Part shown: piece by piece, positions 1 through 42,877 of the stretch
How the letters are laid out: every line of letters starts with the position of its first letter
Position numbering within the stretch: position 1 is the first letter of the stretch
Virus record (IMG/VR): IMGVR_UViG_3300032018_000009
Location: 1 to 42,877 of that record
Length of the DNA stretch: 42,877 bases
Source of the DNA: a virus
Reading direction: 5' to 3' (one strand)
Position numbers and translations under genes: made by a program
The notes under the pieces: generated by a model
The model's database searches: none
Seen by the model: only the letters and a program-made list of their open reading frames with translations
What the model was told of the DNA's origin: nothing

Positions 1-776
1 TAGCTGTTTCTGGGAGGTATGCTTATATTGTAACAATGACGGTTCCAGCCAAGGTAGTAGTAGTTGATATTTCAAATCCAGCTTCACCAACTAGAATTGG
101 AGCAGTAACTTTAAATGAAGGTGAAGATAGTGGTGCTTCAATAGCTGTTTCTGGGAGGTATGCTTATATTGTAACAATGACGGTTCCAGCCAAGGTAGTA
201 GTAGTTGATATTTCAAATCCAGCTTCACCAACTAGAATTGGAGCAGTAACTTTAAATGAAGGTGAAGACAATGGTACTTCAATAGCTGTTTCTGGGAGGT
301 ATGCTTATATTGTAACAGAGACATTCCCAGCCAAGGTAGTAGTAGTTGATATTTCAAATCCAGCTTCACCAACTAGAATTGGAGCAGTAACTTTAAATGA
401 AGGTGAAGACAATGGTACTTCAATAGCTGTTTCTGGGAGATATGCTTATATTGTAACAATGACGGTTCCAGTTAAGGTAGTAGTAGTTGATATTTCAAAT
501 CCAGCTTCACCAACTAGAATTGGAGCAGTAACTTTAAATGAAGGTGAAGACAATGATGCTTCAATAGCTGTTTCTGGGAGGTATGCTTATATTGTAACAA
601 TGACGGTTCCAGCCAAGGTAGTAGTAGTTGATATTTCAAATCCAGCTTCACCAACTAGAATTGGAGCAGTAACTTTAAATGAAGGTGAAGACAATGGTAC
701 TTCAATAGCTGTTTCTGGGAGGTATGCTTATATTGTAACAGAGACAGTTCCGACCAAGGTAGTAGTAGTTGATATT
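1..776 (+). repeat. Tandem 141-bp LVIVD coding repeats (left part of array)
   Basis: Units start at 36, 177, 318, 459 and 600, exactly 141 bp apart and almost identical in DNA. A partial unit lies before 36 and a half unit covers 741-776. Differences concentrate at two places per unit: the codons for MTVPAK/ETFPAK/MTVPVK/ETVPTK and those for DSGAS/DNGTS/DNDAS. The array continues from the right end (42510-42877). Bases 1-30 repeat bases 42848-42877. Confidence 0.95.
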
Positions 777-1373
777 AGAGGAACAGAAATTAGCAGTCTA
801 ATAGCTCATAGTTTAGAAGCTGGCAGTTTACAAGTCAGAAAAGACTTGACTGTTTATGATCATTTGAAAGTTGGTGGTGGAATAAATGTTGGTCCTGGTG
901 GTATTTACTCTGCTGGTCCTTTTTCTCTTATTTCTGGTTCAACTGGGGCAACATCTTCAGCTTTAGATATCAGAAATTCAGCTGGCACCAATTTATTATA
1001 TGTCAGAGATGACGGTAACGTCGGCATTGGGACGGAAGCTCCTTTAGCAAAATTACATGTAGTTGGTGATGCAATTATAAATGGTGCTTTTTCTACTATA
1101 GTAACTACAATAACTACTGATACAACCCTTGATAATACTTATCATATAATTTTAGCTAATGCTACAAATGGTACAATAACAATCACATTACCAAGTGCAA
1201 CCACTTGTTCAGGTAGGCAATATATTATTAAAAAAGTTGATAGTTCTACAAATGCAGTTACTGTCACACCTCAGACAGGACAAACTATAGATGGGCAAAC
1301 AAGTATAAGTATCACAACACAGAATGATTTAAGAAGAATAGTATCAGATGGTACGAATTGGTATATTATTTAA
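3..1373 (+). CDS. LVIVD-repeat tail fibre / receptor-binding protein, C-terminal part (continues from the right end of the window)
   Basis: The frame is open from base 3. The ATG at 36 lies inside a repeat and is not a start; the N-terminus is at 42238 across the circular junction. Seen here: five full 47-residue repeats containing VVVVDISNP..P and SGRYAYIVT, a half repeat ending VVVVDI, then a fibre region with a GNVGIGTEAPLAKLHVVG motif at about residues 328-345 of this part, and a C-terminal domain ending SDGTNWYII. The repeats match the LVIVD beta-propeller repeat family known from surface proteins. GNVGIGT..P..KL.V.G segments are common in phage fibres just before trimeric tips. It lies next to the lysis and portal genes. 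Role as host-binding fibre is inferred; the propeller assignment is from visible motifs. Confidence 0.85.
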   Translation, partial: AVSGRYAYIVTMTVPAKVVVVDISNPASPTRIGAVTLNEGEDSGASIAVSGRYAYIVTMTVPAKVVVVDISNPASPTRIGAVTLNEGEDNGTSIAVSGRYAYIVTETFPAKVVVVDISNPASPTRIGAVTLNEGEDNGTSIAVSGRYAYIVTMTVPVKVVVVDISNPASPTRIGAVTLNEGEDNDASIAVSGRYAYIVTMTVPAKVVVVDISNPASPTRIGAVTLNEGEDNGTSIAVSGRYAYIVTETVPTKVVVVDIRGTEISSLIAHSLEAGSLQVRKDLTVYDHLKVGGGINVGPGGIYSAGPFSLISGSTGATSSALDIRNSAGTNLLYVRDDGNVGIGTEAPLAKLHVVGDAIINGAFSTIVTTITTDTTLDNTYHIILANATNGTITITLPSATTCSGRQYIIKKVDSSTNAVTVTPQTGQTIDGQTSISITTQNDLRRIVSDGTNWYII

Positions 1374-18094: not shown

Positions 18095-19087
18095 TTATAC
18101 CATTTCTATCACAATTCTGCATCTGGGGGCTTTGACAGCGTATTGCTGTTTAATCTCCTTAGGCACTTGATATTCGGTTTGCCAATAAAGCTTCTGTTTA
18201 ATGACAAACCTATCGACCACAAAAAACTTTTCTGTTTCTTTTTTCTCAAGCATCTCAGTTTGCAAGTCTTTTGGTATAGTAAAAGCTTCTTTAATCTTCT
18301 CAGTCAATTCTTCATATCTTTTGGCGAATTGTTCAAGTTCTGCTCTTTCTTTTAGCATCATAAGAAGCTCATTGTCTTCACGAAAGATAATTTTCTCAGA
18401 GCCTTGCATCTCGGTCATGCACATGTGCTTATATGGACAGATGAGACACACAGATAAGTCGTCAGGATTAACTTTCCATAACGGCTCAGGATAAGTTCGT
18501 TTTTCTACATGCTCATTAATCCTCTTAGCTTTTTCTAAAATCTCTAAAGCTCGCTCTTCATCTAAAGTCATATGGATTTCTTTCCAAGAACCATCGAAGC
18601 CTCTTAGAATGAAAATACCACTCTCTATTTTCTCACCTTGCTCACGCATCATATAAAGATATAAATTTAACTGATGGTAATAGCCTCTGTAATAAAACTT
18701 GTCTGCCTCTAAGAAGTCCTCAGCTTTGTTAAACTTCTTGAGGTTCCAACTTTCCATTGATTTTATCTCAATGGCGTGCACATTCCCATTAGTCAAAATT
18801 TTTCCATCAATCTTTCCTGAAATCTGATAATCTCTGAGGAAATAAGGGACTTGCTGATGGATTACCTCAAAGCCTGCTTGAAGCAATTCAACAATAGTCT
18901 GCTTCTCAATAAGTTTACCCATTTCCATTTTCATTAAAACTGAGGAGGGGAGTGGCGCTTTCTGATCCCAGTGCAGCCTTTCAAAGACTAAATATCTAAG
19001 GCAAGGATGCCCCAGAGATGAGCATCTATTACTATTGACAGGGAATTGCACAGGCTGATATTTTTCTTTAATTTTTTCTACTATCAT
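18095..19087 (-). CDS. Cas4/RecB-like PD-(D/E)XK nuclease with Fe-S cluster cysteines
   Basis: A 330-aa protein. Core nuclease residues are clear: D94 in SGKIDGKI, then E107-x-K109 in AIEIKSM, and a QxxxY motif (Q139, Y143) in YYHQLNLYLY. One cysteine near the N-terminus (C29 in SSLGHPCLRY) and three near C214, C217 and C223 (CLICPYKHMC) match the four ligands of the 4Fe-4S cluster of Cas4 and AddB-type nucleases. It is expected to resect DNA ends. The gene lies two genes downstream of a putative annealing protein, the usual exonuclease-annealing pair of phage recombination. Start behind AAAAGGAGGGCAAA. Confidence 0.85.
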   Translation of the reverse strand: MIVEKIKEKYQPVQFPVNSNRCSSLGHPCLRYLVFERLHWDQKAPLPSSVLMKMEMGKLIEKQTIVELLQAGFEVIHQQVPYFLRDYQISGKIDGKILTNGNVHAIEIKSMESWNLKKFNKAEDFLEADKFYYRGYYHQLNLYLYMMREQGEKIESGIFILRGFDGSWKEIHMTLDEERALEILEKAKRINEHVEKRTYPEPLWKVNPDDLSVCLICPYKHMCMTEMQGSEKIIFREDNELLMMLKERAELEQFAKRYEELTEKIKEAFTIPKDLQTEMLEKKETEKFFVVDRFVIKQKLYWQTEYQVPKEIKQQYAVKAPRCRIVIEMV

Positions 19088-31651: not shown

Positions 31652-31711
31652 TCACACCTCCTCATTGTGGGTTTTCTCTCTTTTAACTTTTTCTCTCTCT
31701 TTACTCTCCAT
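31652..31711 (-). CDS. 19-codon leader peptide frame
   Basis: ATG at 31711 has its own site (AGAAGAGGTGGAGCA). The product is MESKEREKVKREKTHNEEV and its stop codon is 3 bases before the ATG of the 515-aa gene. The GAGGAGGTG codons at its end are that gene's ribosome site. It may couple translation of the long gene. It could also be chance. Confidence 0.4.
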   Translation of the reverse strand: MESKEREKVKREKTHNEEV

Positions 31712-31744
31712 TGCTCCACCTCTTCTTCTCTTTTTCTACTGTCT

Positions 31745-31773
31745 ATCTTAGTTAAACAAGCTAAAAAGGTCAA
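31745..31773 (-). promoter_or_regulatory. Early promoter upstream of the 515-aa gene
   Basis: On the minus strand TTGACC (31768-31773), 17 bases, TAAGAT (31745-31750). It starts the first early operon. It has the same TAAGAT -10 box as the promoter at 32749. Confidence 0.7.
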
Positions 31774-31970
31774 GCTTGATTTTAGCTTGTTTTAGCTTGT
31801 TTAGGCTTGGCTTGGCTTGGTTTTCTTGTTTTTTTCTTGTTTTTTCTTAAAATTTTTTGGCTTGGCTTGGCTTGAAAAAATTGGCTTTAAATTGGCTTAT
31901 ATTGGCTTGAATTTGAAAAGGTAGGGTTTGAATACTACCTTGACCTAAAAAGGGCATCGTAGGGCATTTT
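31774..31970. repeat. Short-unit AT-rich repeats upstream of the early operon
   Basis: Runs of TTAGCTTGTT, TTGGC (three or four in tandem, twice), TTTTTCTTG and ATTGGCTT fill 31774-31911. AGGGCAT-type repeats with 10-20-base spacing follow from about 31937 (AGGGCATCGTAGGGCATTTT). Gene-free. It could unwind easily or bind several protein copies; no coding signal is seen. Confidence 0.65.
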
Positions 31971-32002
31971 AGAGCATTTAGAAGGGCATTTTAAGAGACC
32001 TT

Positions 32003-32021
32003 AGAGGGCAAAAAGCCCCCT
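32003..32021 (-). terminator. Terminator-like hairpin behind the 222-aa gene
   Basis: AGGGGGC and GCCCTCT pair (one G-U) around TTTTT on the minus strand, about 30 bases after the stop of the 32052 gene. No downstream U run. Confidence 0.4.
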
Positions 32022-32051
32022 AAAGCCCCATTGATACACTATGCCACTTAA

Positions 32052-32720
32052 TTAATCCTCAAAACCACCATCAACCTCTTCTATCTCTTCCTCTAAAGTC
32101 TGCTCCACTTCCCGAACTAATATCGAATTACCCGCCACAGTCACTCCCTCAATCCTCTTCTCAGCCTTTAATATACTTTTCAATTGAAACAAAACCTCTG
32201 ACAGCCTCTTCTCTATCATAACATAATAACCACTCACCATGCTCCTATTCGGCTTGGTTATCCTTACCGCTATACAATACTGCCTCTTACCCTCTCTCTC
32301 CCAATACCTCAATATCCCTAAATCACCTAATAACTTCAATACCCCTTGCTTACTATACCCTAAATCAAATGCCCTATCTAAAAACTCCTGCATCGTCCCC
32401 CTCTTCAATAATATTAATCCCCTCTTCTTATCAAAACCCTCCATCTCCCCATTGTCATAACTAACACTCCACTCCTTCTTCCTCTCTAATACCCACTGCC
32501 AAAATACTTTTAACAACTCTAACTCCTCTCTACTCAAATCCCCTACCTCTAACCGCACTTCCCCTACCTTCCCCTCAACCCTCTTCAACTTCCTCCCTAA
32601 TAACCGCTCCAATATCAACCGCATGTCCTCTAACTCCCTCCTCATCTCCCGCACCTCTACCACTAAACTATCCACTAACCCCACTAATCCCTCTACCAAA
32701 CGCTCAATCTTACTCTCCAT
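32052..32720 (-). CDS. Coiled-coil protein with winged-helix-like domain; possible origin/array-binding protein
   Basis: A 222-aa protein. Residues 1-45 form a coiled coil (VEGLVGLVDSLVVEVREMRR). About 70-150 contain a helix-rich domain ending in a winged-helix-like part (MQEFLDRAFDLGYSKQGVLK, LLGDLGILRYWER then GKRQYCIAVRI). The C-terminus is acidic. It is the first leftward gene next to the repeat-filled control region and has its own promoter (32749-32777). Iteron-binding initiators and partition proteins are commonly encoded beside their sites, so this is the best candidate for such a role. No named family is recognised. Confidence 0.62.
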   Translation of the reverse strand: MESKIERLVEGLVGLVDSLVVEVREMRRELEDMRLILERLLGRKLKRVEGKVGEVRLEVGDLSREELELLKVFWQWVLERKKEWSVSYDNGEMEGFDKKRGLILLKRGTMQEFLDRAFDLGYSKQGVLKLLGDLGILRYWEREGKRQYCIAVRITKPNRSMVSGYYVMIEKRLSEVLFQLKSILKAEKRIEGVTVAGNSILVREVEQTLEEEIEEVDGGFED

Positions 32721-32748
32721 CTCTGCACCTCCTCTCTGTTTTTCTTTA

Positions 32749-32777
32749 ATCTTAACTCAACCTCTGTTCTTTGTCAA
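32749..32777 (-). promoter_or_regulatory. Promoter of the 222-aa gene
   Basis: On the minus strand TTGACA (32772-32777), 17 bases, TAAGAT (32749-32754). The -35 box lies inside the first iteron-like repeat (GTCAATAGTATTACAGCAT on the other strand), so a repeat-binding protein would repress it. Confidence 0.75.
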
Positions 32778-33270
32778 TAGTATTACAGCATGACATCATC
32801 ATCCTTAGCCCTTGTCAATAGTATTACAGCATTACAAATATGACAACCTGCCCTTTATATGCCCGCAATGCCCCTCTGTCGATACTATGACAGTATTACA
32901 AGGATTACAGTCAATAGTATTACAGCATTACAAGCATGACAACTTACCCTCTGCTATCTTTCCCTCTCTCCCTGTCATACTATTACAGCATGACAAGTAT
33001 TACAAACTAACCCCCTATATATCCCTGATGTCCCCCTGTAATGCTATGACAGCATTACAAGTATTACAATATGCCCATTCCTGTACTTCTCAGATGCTCT
33101 CTCCGTTTCGTTCTATTTTGCTGATGGTGTTCTTTTTTCTGTTTTGTAATGCTGTCATACTTTCTCTGAAATACTAATAAATTCTACTTTTCCTATGATA
33201 TGTAATACTGTTACTAAACTATTATCATACTGTAATCTGTGTGTCAATACTTTACAGCATTACAGTCATA
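32774..33270. repeat. Iteron-like repeats built from TATTACAG/CATTACAA octamers
   Basis: TCAATAGTATTACAGCAT is present at 32774 and recurs at about 32816 and 32911. Variants with ATKACA boxes follow (GTCGATACTATGACAGTATT, GTCATACTATTACAGCATGA, GTAATGCTATGACAGCATTA) and two more, one inverted, lie near 33145 and 33242. Within a unit the ATTACA/ATGACA boxes are 8 or 9 bp apart. At least seven units in about 500 bp, spaced by C/T-rich filler. Frames through it look like chance. Confidence 0.8.
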
Positions 33271-33283
33271 CTTTTCCCTTTTG

Positions 33284-33495
33284 CGTGGAACATTTGCTTC
33301 TAAGTCAGTATTCATGCGGTCTCCGAGACATGCTTCCGTGGAACATTCTTTTAATCCACACTAAACAAATCAGTAATTACCCTCTGTGTCTTGTCCCCTC
33401 AGCCCTTCAGACAATCTGTATTGCTCCAATCTTCCCTTTTTCCGTGGGACACTCTGCGTGGAACACACCATCTGTGGAACACTTTCCATGGAACA
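33284..33495 (+). repeat. Six direct repeats of NGTGGAACA
   Basis: CGTGGAACA at 33284, 33337 and 33457; CGTGGGACA at 33443; TGTGGAACA at 33473; CATGGAACA at 33487. The last four are 14-16 bp apart. The motif equals one half-site of the bacterial parS palindrome TGTTCCACGTGGAACA, but no full palindrome occurs. Confidence 0.6.
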
Positions 33496-33529
33496 CTTCT
33501 CCGTTTGCTCGCTGTGGGTTCTGGACGAT

Positions 33530-33785
33530 ACTCTATCAATCAGGCATTCAGGCACTTAGCCGTTCGGTCACTCGGTCTCTCGGGCACTCCGCACTTCGGA
33601 ACTCAGGCTCTTCGGAACTCAAGCACTTCGGCGATCGACCACTCGGCCGTTCAGACAATCAGACACTCGACCACTCGACCACTCGATCACTCGATCACTC
33701 GATCACTCGATCACTCGATCACTCGGATAATCAGGCATTCAGGCACTTAAGCATTTGACCGCTTGACCACTTGACCACTCAGAGC
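33530..33785 (+). repeat. Octamer array, consensus CTCGRNCA, strict 8-bp period (about 32 units)
   Basis: Five perfect CTCGATCA units run from 33682 to 33721, flanked by CTCGACCA (33666, 33674). Degenerate units in the same register extend left (ATCAGACA, TTCAGACA, CTCGGCCG, ATCGACCA, back to about 33530) and right (CTCGGATA, ATCAGGCA, TTCAGGCA, CTTGACCA twice, to 33785). The + strand frame through it gives an 8-residue repeat peptide and has no ribosome site. Confidence 0.88.
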
Positions 33786-33810
33786 TCAAGCAATCTGTAT
33801 TTAACCACTC

Positions 33811-33898
33811 TGCATTCGTTTATTCGCTTTTTCGTTTATTCGCATAATCGCTTATTCGTTCTTTCGAGCAGTCGGCGACTTGGCTACTGAGAAACTGA
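33811..33898 (+). repeat. Second octamer array, TTCG every 8 bp (11 units)
   Basis: TTCG at 33815, 33823, 33831, 33839, 33855 and 33863; ATCG at 33847; GTCG at 33871; CTTG at 33879; CTGA at 33887 and 33895. All are exactly 8 bp apart, but the phase differs from the CTCGRNCA array. The filler between boxes is A/T-rich. Confidence 0.82.
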
Positions 33899-33902
33899 GC
33901 TT

Positions 33903-33997
33903 GTGAAAAATTTCACGAGCCCTTGACAAGGGCATGTGAAAAAATTCACGTGAAAAAATTCACAAAGTCCTTGTCAAGAGATTGTGAAAAATTTCAC
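33903..33997. promoter_or_regulatory. Dyad-symmetric cluster of four GTGAAA..TTTCAC boxes (operator or origin)
   Basis: 14-bp boxes GTGAAAAATTTCAC (33903-33916 and 33984-33997) flank two abutting GTGAAAAAATTCAC boxes (33936-33949 and 33950-33963). CCTTGACAAGG and CCTTGTCAAG lie between the outer and inner boxes on either side, so the whole 95 bp is an imperfect palindrome centred at the inner junction. The outer boxes with flanks read TGTGA-N6-TCACR, like CRP/FNR-family sites. Confidence 0.78.
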
Positions 33998-39390: not shown

Positions 39391-40473
39391 ATGGATTGGG
39401 AAGGTAAGATTTACGATTATTTATTAACTTATAAAAAATATGAAGTTAGATGGAGGCAGAAGTGGGTTGATTATAAAAAGTGGATTGATTTTGGTCGCAA
39501 TTGGACACCAGCTTCTGAGAAATATTATACTGAAGAAGAAATGCTAAAAGAGATATTGGAGCCATGTTATAAATTTTTGTGGGTTAAATTGTATAGTAAA
39601 GATATAATTATTATCCCTTTTGAACCTCCTGTTAGTGGATGGTTATGGCAATGCGATAAAGTAAAATACGTAGGATATGTAGATCTTGTAAATTTAAGTG
39701 ACATTGAATATATTGATCATGGTATGTTTTTTAGCCCTGATGGCACTAATTTATATGTATCAGGTTTTTTAGGTAGAGGGAATATATTTTGGTTTAAATT
39801 GGCAACGCCTTGGGATATAACTACAGCTATTTTCCAAAATACAATGAATGAAGACGCCTTAGGGGCAATTTTAGGGAGGCCTAAGAGTATATATTTTTCA
39901 CCAGATGGAAATAATTATTATACTTCTGTTCTTAAAGAGGATGGTACTTTTTTTTCGCAAATTACTTTAACAAACCCATGGGATATTACAACAATGTATA
40001 CACATAATGGAGTTCGATTAAATTGGTTTGTTTATAACATTAATTTTAACCTTGATGGCACTAAATTGTATTTATTTGGTCATGATACATTTCAATATAT
40101 TTTAGTTGAATATACTTTATCAACTCCTTGGGATATTTCTACAATTGTTAATCTTGATGGGGATGTGTCCTTACATTTAAATGAAGTGCCTCCTGATGAG
40201 GTTATTGATAGTCTTTATTTTAAACCAGATGGAAGTGGTTTTTATGTGGCAACTTATAGTGGTGATGTTCTTTATTATGATTTGCCAACCCCATGGAGTT
40301 TGAGTGATTATATATATAAAGGTATATGTTTTAATCCGAAAAGTATTTTAAATGCAATTGATATATACCCTTATGGGGGGACGTTTAACTTTTTCATGAG
40401 CTATAATGGAAAGTTTGCTTATGTTAGTTTTGAACTTGGAACTCAAATTTTTATGTTTACCAGTGGAACTTAA
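39391..40473 (+). CDS. Beta-propeller tail protein
   Basis: 360 aa. After an N-terminal helical part (residues 1-75), four or five repeats of about 48 residues carry FSPDGTNLYVSG / FNLDGTKLYLFG / FKPDGSGFYVAT followed by a strand and TPWDITT or TPWDIST. This repeat is common in phage tail and appendage proteins and is predicted to form a beta-propeller. It lies between the glycine-rich adhesin and the lysis genes, so an accessory host-binding or fibre-associated role is likely. The repeats are unrelated in sequence to the LVIVD repeats of the fibre gene. Confidence 0.72.
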   Translation: MDWEGKIYDYLLTYKKYEVRWRQKWVDYKKWIDFGRNWTPASEKYYTEEEMLKEILEPCYKFLWVKLYSKDIIIIPFEPPVSGWLWQCDKVKYVGYVDLVNLSDIEYIDHGMFFSPDGTNLYVSGFLGRGNIFWFKLATPWDITTAIFQNTMNEDALGAILGRPKSIYFSPDGNNYYTSVLKEDGTFFSQITLTNPWDITTMYTHNGVRLNWFVYNINFNLDGTKLYLFGHDTFQYILVEYTLSTPWDISTIVNLDGDVSLHLNEVPPDEVIDSLYFKPDGSGFYVATYSGDVLYYDLPTPWSLSDYIYKGICFNPKSILNAIDIYPYGGTFNFFMSYNGKFAYVSFELGTQIFMFTSGT

Positions 40474-41300: not shown

Positions 41301-41909
41301 ATGAAAAAAGCAATCATTAGTTTAATTTTAAGTTTGCTTTTTTTAGCTGAGGCATCTTTTGCGGATTGTAAAAGATTGGTGCCGAAGGTGCGTCAAGCTT
41401 CTGAATTTGTGTTAGGGTTAGATTATTCTTATTGGTATAACTTAGGGCAAATAGAAACGGAGACTAATTGCATATGGCGGACTTCTTTAGATGGATGGGG
41501 TTCAGTAGGTTATGCTCAGTTAACAGAAAGATTTTTACCTTGGCTGAATGTGATGTTCCCGAATTGGAAGGTGAAGGGGCATATAGACCATTTTATGGCT
41601 CAGGCATATTTGATTAAGCAGTTGATTGGTCAAGTAAGTTGCAAGAAGCTTTGGTGTGTGTATCAGTGTTATAATCGGTCATGTTGGAAGATTGATAGGG
41701 AAGCGATGCAAGCTGGTTGTATATGGGAGAGGGCATTTGAATTGTGTAATGAGAAGTTTGCGGAGAGTATTTGTGTATGGAAGCGGGCAGGTCAATGTTT
41801 ACAGTGGCGGACAAGTTGTGATATTAATTATAACTATGGGTTTAAAGTTTGGAAGAATGGGATAAAATATAAAAATGGAATGATGGAACGAACTTATCAA
41901 TATTGGTAG
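41301..41909 (+). CDS. Secreted lysozyme/transglycosylase-like endolysin
   Basis: 202 aa. Residues 1-21 form a signal peptide (LILSLLFLAEASFA). The mature part reads YWYNLGQIETETNCIWRTSL followed by DGWGSVGYAQLT, the helix-Glu and GSVGYAQLT pattern of soluble lytic transglycosylases (SLT), with E52 as likely catalytic acid. About twelve Cys suggest disulphides in the periplasm. It would cut peptidoglycan at lysis, or serve as a virion transglycosylase. It follows the three-helix membrane gene. The ribosome site is weak, so coupling is likely. Confidence 0.78.
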   Translation: MKKAIISLILSLLFLAEASFADCKRLVPKVRQASEFVLGLDYSYWYNLGQIETETNCIWRTSLDGWGSVGYAQLTERFLPWLNVMFPNWKVKGHIDHFMAQAYLIKQLIGQVSCKKLWCVYQCYNRSCWKIDREAMQAGCIWERAFELCNEKFAESICVWKRAGQCLQWRTSCDINYNYGFKVWKNGIKYKNGMMERTYQYW

Positions 41910-41919
41910 GAGGTAAGAA

Positions 41920-42222
41920 ATGGCTATACAAAGTTGGTATGAAGTAATGTTAAAAAGTTTTTTTACTCAACAAATTTTGAAAAATTATGCTTTAACAATC
42001 AATAATGCAACAAAGATACAACCACAAGATGCAAGAACTAATCAGATGGTTATTATGAATAATTCAAGCAATCCTATTTATTTAGGGGCAGATGCAACAG
42101 TATCTGCTTCTAATGGATTTCCAATTTTACCAAGTGAAGCAATAACTTTTGTTTGCGATAGTTCTTTTTCGTGTTATTTGTATGGTAGTAATCAGGAGAT
42201 AAGAGTTTTAGAATTATTATAA
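41920..42222 (+). CDS. Small fibre/decoration-type protein
   Basis: 100 aa. The first half is helical (IQSWYEVMLKSFFTQQILKN). The second half is a beta pattern common in phage head fibres and decoration proteins: NQMVIMNNSSNPIYLGADAT, SASNGFPILPSEAITF, SCYLYGSNQEIRVLEL. It starts behind GGTAGGAGGTAAGAA and ends 15 bases before the LVIVD fibre gene, so it may be part of the fibre attachment. Function assigned by pattern only. Confidence 0.62.
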   Translation: MAIQSWYEVMLKSFFTQQILKNYALTINNATKIQPQDARTNQMVIMNNSSNPIYLGADATVSASNGFPILPSEAITFVCDSSFSCYLYGSNQEIRVLELL

Positions 42223-42237
42223 GGGAGGTGTGATGTT

Positions 42238-42877
42238 ATGAAATTTTTGCGCAAAGTTTCACCGATTGCTACAGGCGCCATTACGAATACTGTTGGGGGG
42301 GATTTAACAGTTCAAGGGAATATAAATATTCAAGCAGGTAATAATGCTTCTATTGGAACGGTTGATAACTATAATTTGAGTTTGAGAACGAATAACGCTG
42401 ATAGAATTTTTATCACAAACACTGGCAACGTTGGCATCGGGACGGCAAGTCCATTGGAAAAATTAGATGTTATTGGTAATATTCAGAATATTCTAAGTGC
42501 CGATGCTCCACCAACTAGAATTGGAGCAGTAACTTTAAATGAAGGTGAAGACTATGGTACTTCAATAGCTGTTTCTGGAAGGTATGCTTATATTGTAACA
42601 GAGACATTCCCAGCCAAGGTAGTAGTAGTTGATATTTCAAATCCAGCTTCACCAACTAGAATTGGAGCAGTAACTTTAAATGAAGGTGAAGATAGTGGTG
42701 CTTCAATAGCTGTTTCTGGGAGGTATGCTTATATTGTAACAATGACGGTTCCAGCCAAGGTAGTAGTAGTTGATATTTCAAATCCAGCTTCACCAACTAG
42801 AATTGGAGCAGTAACTTTAAATGAAGGTGAAGATAGTGGTGCTTCAATAGCTGTTTCTGGGAGGTATGCTTATATTG
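42238..42877 (+). CDS. LVIVD-repeat tail fibre, N-terminal part (continues at base 3)
   Basis: ATG 42238 behind AAGGGAGGTGTGATGTT. The first 85 residues are a fibre stem (FLRKVSPIATGAITNTVGG, then RIFITNTGNVGIGTASPLEKL). The frame then enters half a repeat starting at PPTRIGAV and two full 47-residue LVIVD repeats and runs off the end. Joining through the 30-base overlap gives about 660 aa: half + seven full + half repeats, flanked on both sides by GNVGIGT..P..KL.V.G motifs. The two halves complement each other, as in propellers closed by pairing of first and last strands. Confidence 0.88.
   Translation, partial: MKFLRKVSPIATGAITNTVGGDLTVQGNINIQAGNNASIGTVDNYNLSLRTNNADRIFITNTGNVGIGTASPLEKLDVIGNIQNILSADAPPTRIGAVTLNEGEDYGTSIAVSGRYAYIVTETFPAKVVVVDISNPASPTRIGAVTLNEGEDSGASIAVSGRYAYIVTMTVPAKVVVVDISNPASPTRIGAVTLNEGEDSGASIAVSGRYAYI
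42510..42877 (+). repeat. Tandem 141-bp LVIVD coding repeats (right part of array)
   Basis: Half a unit from about 42510, one full unit beginning with the ETFPAK codons near 42600, and a second (MTVPAK type) reaching the window end. Bases 42848-42877 equal bases 1-30, so the array is continuous with the left end. The true copy number cannot be known from this assembly. Confidence 0.93.

Follow-up and report, generated by a model that had tools for sequence, protein, structure and literature searches.

Near-identical LVIVD units in a phage tail-fiber gene vary at two loops of a predicted seven-bladed propeller

Introduction

Phage receptor-binding propellers are known but few. The adsorption proteins described in PMC4901313 include Gp45 of phi11 and P2 of PRD1, both with five-bladed propellers, and gp131C of phiKZ, which is seven-bladed. 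Propellers with almost identical blades have been described in cellular organisms, where WRAP and other recently amplified WD40 propellers are documented (PMC6805158, PMC9218822) and where the HNWD genes of Podospora anserina vary the loop codons on one surface of near-identical units (PMC2873952). In Bdellovibrio, mosaic adhesive trimers present exchangeable adhesin tips on a fiber shaft (PMC10769870). A further relevant group is the Patescibacteria, bacteria of ultrasmall size. According to PMC12206443, those in cultivation live on other microbes, and their host choice is largely unknown.

Here, we analyze a tail-fiber gene in the window, that is, the whole 42,877-base virus record. Its propeller belongs to the LVIVD family and its blades are almost identical in DNA. 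A preliminary description read the repeats as a recombination-driven receptor-binding switch. We find it probable that they instead form a fixed seven-bladed LVIVD adhesin on the tail fiber of a hot-spring phage, with re-amplified or homogenized blades whose loops, on a single face, would bind the host.

Results

The fiber gene and the ends of the record

The fiber gene spans the ends of the record (table 1). The first and last 171 bases of the record are identical, and joining the ends on this overlap, which lies inside the LVIVD array, gives 613 codons (613 amino acids) in frame, without a stop, and with seven units. Another exact overlap, of 30 bases, also gives an in-frame join and yields eight units, and an overlap of 312 bases yields six units at the cost of nine mismatches. 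The blade number in the record is thus seven by the longest exact overlap and eight by the 30-base alternative, neither of them proven, and because this number rests on the end overlap the record cannot show copy-number variation. Apart from the number of units the join is right, and the genes flanking it follow the order found in two relatives (G005 and G002). Since the 171-base end repeat sits in the blade array, the label "direct terminal repeat" would mislead; near-identical blade genes are where assemblers cut, and work on recently amplified propellers gives the same warning about assembling identical units (PMC9218822, PMC6805158).

The preliminary description placed the array at 1-776. 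A tandem array of a 141-base unit (47 codons) does lie there, with 5.5 copies, 95% matches and a frame open from base 3, but its apparent stop at base 1 is an artifact of the position at which the record was cut: a further 2.6 copies lie at 42505-42877, the gene starts at 42238, and the DYGTS variant occurs only at the right end (42550-42564). The description was accurate about the units themselves, which are near-identical, and about their variants, as MTVPAK, ETFPAK, MTVPVK, ETVPTK, DSGAS, DNGTS, DNDAS and DYGTS are all present.

Table 1. Features of the fiber gene and its surroundings in the window
Feature	Coordinates	Strand	Remarks
Fiber gene, whole	42238..42877, then 1..1373	+	spans the record ends
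5' part of fiber gene	42238..42877	+	213 aa, runs off record; N-terminal segment, NVGIGT..KLDV fiber motif, two LVIVD units (1 and 2) and the first part of unit 3
3' part of fiber gene	1..1373	+	456 aa, read from base 3; remainder of the array, then cap, NVGIGT..KLHV motif, tip domain at the C-terminus and stop codon
100-aa gene just upstream of fiber gene	41920..42222	+	absent together with the fiber gene from two site-spanning relatives; no Pfam family
End overlap	42707..42877 = bases 1-171	+	within array; not a packaging repeat
LVIVD unit 1	42511..42651	+	patches DYGTS / ETFPA
LVIVD unit 2	42652..42792	+	patches DSGAS / MTVPA
LVIVD unit 3, start	42793..42877	+	cut by record end
LVIVD unit 3	87..227	+	assuming the 171-base overlap; same as unit 2 (DSGAS / MTVPA)
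LVIVD unit 4	228..368	+	DNGTS / ETFPA
LVIVD unit 5	369..509	+	DNGTS / MTVPV
LVIVD unit 6	510..650	+	DNDAS / MTVPA
LVIVD unit 7	651..791	+	DNGTS / ETVPT; last five codons depart into cap
Patch 1, example	126..137	+	unit codons 14-17, a-b loop; offset alike in every unit
Patch 2, example	177..191	+	unit codons 31-35, c-d loop; offset alike in every unit
Cap after propeller	777..932	+	also present in Patescibacteria proteins; 8 rows 44-58% identical to the window, L038 58%
C-terminal tip domain	1143..1370	+	also found in tail proteins of unrelated phages and in the fiber of a relative with a 67% identical terminase (G004)

The family assignment is clear, as the two halves of the gene score 154.7 and 74.4 bits against PF08309, for which the curated cut-off is 20.2, and the repeats are in tandem. 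The 5' part matches PF08309 (E 4.4e-21) and a PHROG tail fiber protein (E 2.1e-7); the 3' part matches PF08309 in five stretches (E 3.6e-46) and PHROGs only weakly. Together with the tail-fiber profile match, the neighborhood of tail genes and a tip domain shared with tail proteins identify the product as a tail fiber, in which the propeller is placed between NVGIGT-type fiber motifs. When solved structures were searched by sequence with the fiber protein, they matched at the fiber motif only (NVGIGT..KLHV to 8ond and 8ojn). Pfam matches such as Arteri_nucleo and VCPO_N on the repeats were taken as composition effects.

Repeats of other kinds occur elsewhere in the window. Several short-repeat families lie at 31700-33900, e.g., CACTCGAT in 7.8 copies at 33664-33725, and 41-base repeats of the ATTACAGCAT type at 32773-33077. 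Two 48-base copies with operator-like palindromes of the GTGAAAAAATTCAC type lie at 33903-33997. The minus strand encodes a Cas4-domain exonuclease at 18095-19087 (E 1.6e-48), and a Cas4-like gene is also reported for a hot-spring Roizmanbacteria phage (PMC6509639).

Amino-acid variation among the units

Each unit has the layout PTRIGAVTLNEGED-xxx-SIAVSGRYAYIVT-xTxPx-KVVVVDISNPAS. Variation was counted over the first 42 codons (126 columns) of the seven units that result when the record ends are joined on their 171 shared bases. Sixteen of the 126 columns vary, affecting 11 of the 42 codons; six of these codons change the amino acid (15, 16, 17, 31, 33 and 35) and five are synonymous only, three of them within the patches (14, 32 and 34) and two outside (23 and 24). 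Amino-acid change thus affects six of nine codons inside the patches and none of the 33 outside. Random placement of six codons reproduced the tightness of the two clusters in 1670 of 200,000 trials. As a test that takes the patch limits from the data is circular, its very small p-value was set aside in favor of a test based on loops, by which all six amino-acid-variable codons fall in the two inter-strand loops, which hold 14 of the 47 codons (p=0.0003).

Silent sites behave similarly. Within the patches pS is 0.32 and pN 0.19, and outside them pS is 0.022 and pN 0, with three of the five silent-only codons lying in patches (p=0.057). The greater silent divergence of the patches hints at an older or imported patch sequence or at homogenized strands, and not at selection on amino acids alone. 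The patch pN/pS of 0.58, from seven units only, stays below the value of 1 that an HNWD-type system would be expected to exceed. The units are 88-100% identical in protein, above the 60% threshold for median blade identity that is used to mark recently amplified, WRAP-type propellers.

Predicted fold and the variable face

An AlphaFold2 model of L038, the nearest complete relative, built with 54 aligned relatives, has a mean pLDDT of 91.1 and a pTM of 0.85, and its 28 strands form a closed ring of seven blades with four strands each. Compared with solved structures, this model resembles WD40 and other seven-bladed propellers (Z up to 35.9, 281 residues, 1.9 Å). The 456-residue half from the window, a fragment of just under six units that is cut by the record end, was modeled with a mean pLDDT of 86.8 and a pTM of 0.62, again with four-stranded blades. 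Its strands comprise residues 30-36, 44-50, 53-58 and 64-69, which places variable residues 43-45 in the a-b loop, where they extend into the start of strand b. Variable residues 59-63 lie in the c-d loop. By the strand order of an up-and-down blade, the a-b and c-d loops would point to one face. The prediction made in the preliminary description, that the variable patches would share a face, is borne out to this extent.

Propeller relatives and blade number

A comparison of the LVIVD array with GTDB contigs retained 79 loci, 31 of which belong to Patescibacteria groups by record title. The closest two are L038 (56%, E 4e-91), a surface protein of 863 aa from Candidatus Parcubacteria KatS3mg094, and the protein L070 (72%, the match being cut by the contig end), from Patescibacteria SKYG101. 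We take the KatS3mg MAGs to be geothermal. L038 is 54% identical to the window protein over 310 residues and has seven units and the same cap, and L070 shares the segment that precedes the repeats (66% over 112 residues, first units included); homology therefore extends beyond the repeats. Past the first 17 bases, the two visible units of L070 differ only at unit bases 47, 50, 51 and 98, which fall within the two patches seen in the window. In the L070 fiber protein (500-2758), the fiber is preceded by an N-terminus with a match to phage-integrase SAM-like domains (PF02899, E 6.9e-11).

Seven units are present in all 13 distinct arrays that carry an HSLEAG-type cap, counting those that could be parsed and leaving aside the window itself and L117, which is L038 again. 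Eleven were counted by script, and the second array of L052 and the array of L060 were read from the full domain list, the filter having split both. Arrays that lack such a cap have 3 to 14 units by script; the filter had split some of these too. The units of L038 are mutually only 32-59% alike, and those of the window form a single cluster apart from the units of L038 and L070 (support 0.96). The constancy of seven units in capped relatives, taken with the diverged units of L038 as against the near-identical ones of the window, suggests that seven blades probably predate the homogenization or re-amplification of the phage array.

The same loops are variable in other arrays. Loop codons make up 7 of 11 amino-acid-variable codons in L134, 7 of 12 in L118, 10 of 20 in L044 and 13 of 27 in L041, each above expectation (p 0.004 to 0.012), with loop limits set by hand from strand motifs and with L044 and L118 coming from one genome. 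L039 was left out of this count as its unit frame is shifted.

Annotated phages searched with the LVIVD repeats and with the L038 module gave no match, and only the tip domain matched, in six records. Viral contigs were scanned with the 3' half, with the blade motif and with the cap, and returned no relative and no second allele. A looser LVIVD scan of viral contigs gave eight loci at 28-38% identity (L030-L037), whose units were counted as well. Among 19 publications that name LVIVD, none is phage-centered by title.

Kinship of the phage and the fiber cassette

The record is 83.8% identical in DNA to Hydrogenobaculum phage 1 over 15 kb, and their terminases are 98.5% identical. According to PMC7689252, that phage was assigned to Hydrogenobaculum through CRISPR spacers. 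The relatives of the fiber suggested a Patescibacterium as the phage host, a candidate that we rejected given the terminase and DNA kinship to Hydrogenobaculum phage 1; by these comparisons, the window phage probably infects an Aquificota bacterium. Searches with terminase profiles gave no match in GTDB contigs and a single weak one in 379 genomes from the phylum to which G007 belongs. One IMG dataset of the relatives, 3300005860, is associated with papers that, by their abstracts, concern geothermal sediments. Hydrogenobaculum phage 1 (KP282676) was deposited as complete at 19,351 bases and aligns to only part of the 42.9-kb record, without the capsid and fiber part; judged from this alignment, the deposit is probably a fragment.

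Two relatives cover the site of the fiber gene. In G005, whose terminase is 91% identical, the counterparts of window genes 41301-41909 and 1474-1791 adjoin (4017 and 4091 in L010), and in G002 they lie at 1325 and 1378 in L024; both relatives are without the fiber gene and without the small gene at 41920-42222. The fiber gene is a cassette, and since the relatives that cover the site lack the whole gene, its distribution shows cassette gain or loss and not the shuffling of units. LVIVD was found in none of the 17 loci of relatives, which are parts of seven contigs and include several fragments that do not reach the fiber site. In G004 (terminase 67% identical), a 711-aa fiber shares the C-terminal tip at 61% identity and has no LVIVD units. 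Two kelch-repeat proteins, kelch being another propeller kind, lie beside the G004 fiber (L012 8450-10990). The tail module of the window also encodes a second propeller-like protein with SPDGTNLYV / PWDITT repeats (39391-40473), which has distant matches in 11 phage records, one of them annotated as isomerase ybhE. A G005 gene (L010 259-1089) has an N-terminus related to that protein and a quite different repetitive body.

Discussion

We propose that the gene encodes a tail fiber in a relative of Hydrogenobaculum phage 1, and that a capped seven-bladed LVIVD β-propeller would sit between fiber-shaft motifs, ahead of a C-terminal tip domain common among phages. Its blades may have been re-amplified or homogenized recently from one blade type, which would have left the strands near-identical, whereas the two loops on one face would have retained or acquired differences; together these loops most likely make up a repeated ligand surface by which the host cell is bound. 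Ring closure would hold the blade number at seven, and variation of the fiber would come from point or short-tract changes in the loops and from swaps of the whole gene between phages; the phage group may swap propeller types. The computed elements of this proposal are the gene structure, the family, the blade fold of the nearest complete relative, the positions of the loops, the conservation of seven units and the absence of the cassette from relatives. Receptor binding, the trimer, the ligand and the mechanism of homogenization are what we infer. In particular, the propeller is probably the host-gripping tip, although loops vary in most propellers and loop variation alone does not show binding.

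An alternative history, in which one blade was recently copied to seven in the manner of WRAP and drift has begun to separate the loops without any bearing on the choice of binding partner, is a possibility that we take seriously but doubt. According to PMC9218822 and PMC6805158, single blades continuously give rise to propellers whose blades are nearly identical, and the units of the window are nearest to one another. The distribution of changes fits drift poorly, given that all 33 codons outside the patches keep their amino acid when six of nine inside have changed, although strong purifying selection on the strands could explain part of this, and drift would also have to account for the variation of the same loops in other arrays. 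An assembly artifact, i.e., a collapse or chimera of the arrays of several strains with a unit order and variant list belonging to no single genome, seems unlikely. The cut in the record does fall within the array, where two units are identical and the ends overlap by 171 bases, and the cellular contig of L070 likewise ends within its array; nevertheless, the frame is intact across both halves, the flanks are conserved and the unit number under the longest exact overlap matches that of the relatives.

We assign a still lower probability to the switch, in which unequal crossing-over or gene conversion between blades would reshuffle the loops, and perhaps the number of blades, and so change the receptor, much as in Podospora HNWD. 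Near-identical DNA would permit unequal crossing-over, as the preliminary description argued, and the restriction of amino-acid variation to loops of units that are otherwise so alike is what such exchange might leave. There is a precedent in the concerted evolution, the diversifying selection at four surface codons and the unit gain and loss described for Podospora (PMC2873952), and the denser silent differences in the patches are as short conversion tracts would give. The blade count argues the other way, as seven units recur throughout the capped relatives and L038 is modeled with seven blades; given these relatives, one would expect the ring to fail to close if the count changed. Three scans of viral contigs, for the gene, the units and the cap, gave no second allele, and the pN/pS of the patches is low for a switch. 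The two patches do vary, as the preliminary description stated, but its mix-and-match pattern is less marked than it suggested: none of the pairs formed by the 16 variable columns has the full set of four combinations, and no pair of sites thus requires recombination. This is only mild evidence against exchange between the patches, since 624 of the 5040 orders obtained by dealing the patch-2 types anew among the units likewise lack such a pair. The statement that no reverse transcriptase is present holds for the record, in which RVT_1 finds none (the control registers in 3 of 14 genomes), and by this search the element lacks the enzyme that a diversity-generating retroelement would carry. Overall, we prefer to read the propeller as an adhesin tip with a fixed number of seven blades; a switch is possible but finds no support in these data.

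The nearest propeller relatives of the fiber are surface proteins of Patescibacteria. The shared adhesin module may have moved between phage and Patescibacteria in a common habitat, or both may bind one kind of cell. A more elaborate version, in which both share the capped LVIVD propeller because they dock on the same host bacteria, and in which gene conversion between blades at a fixed blade number tunes the loops in both, strikes us as improbable. If phage and epibiont do use the same tip, the shared target would be a testable lead on the host choice of Patescibacteria.

Among the systems compared, L038 and L070 are closest. L038 has fiber-type motifs and the same cap behind its seven LVIVD units, and L070 has near-identical units that differ at the same two loops. 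Unlike the window protein, both are cellular, and L038 ends in a Peptidase_S74 domain, has diverged units and carries no phage tip domain. The loop-codon variation on one surface recalls HNWD, which is, however, a fungal WD40 system in which the gain and loss of units and diversifying selection have both been proven (PMC2873952); neither is shown for the window. The WRAP-type propellers share the almost identical blades and the recent amplification, but they are cellular WD40 proteins, and WRAP is without the synonymous differences that the array of the window has (PMC6805158, PMC9218822). With the Bdellovibrio trimers the fiber shares the motif matched in 8ond and 8ojn; those trimers are cellular, and the word propeller is absent from that paper (PMC10769870). 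Finally, phi11, PRD1 and phiKZ provide the precedent for a propeller on a phage adsorption protein, and none of theirs is described in PMC4901313 as belonging to the LVIVD family or as having near-identical blades.
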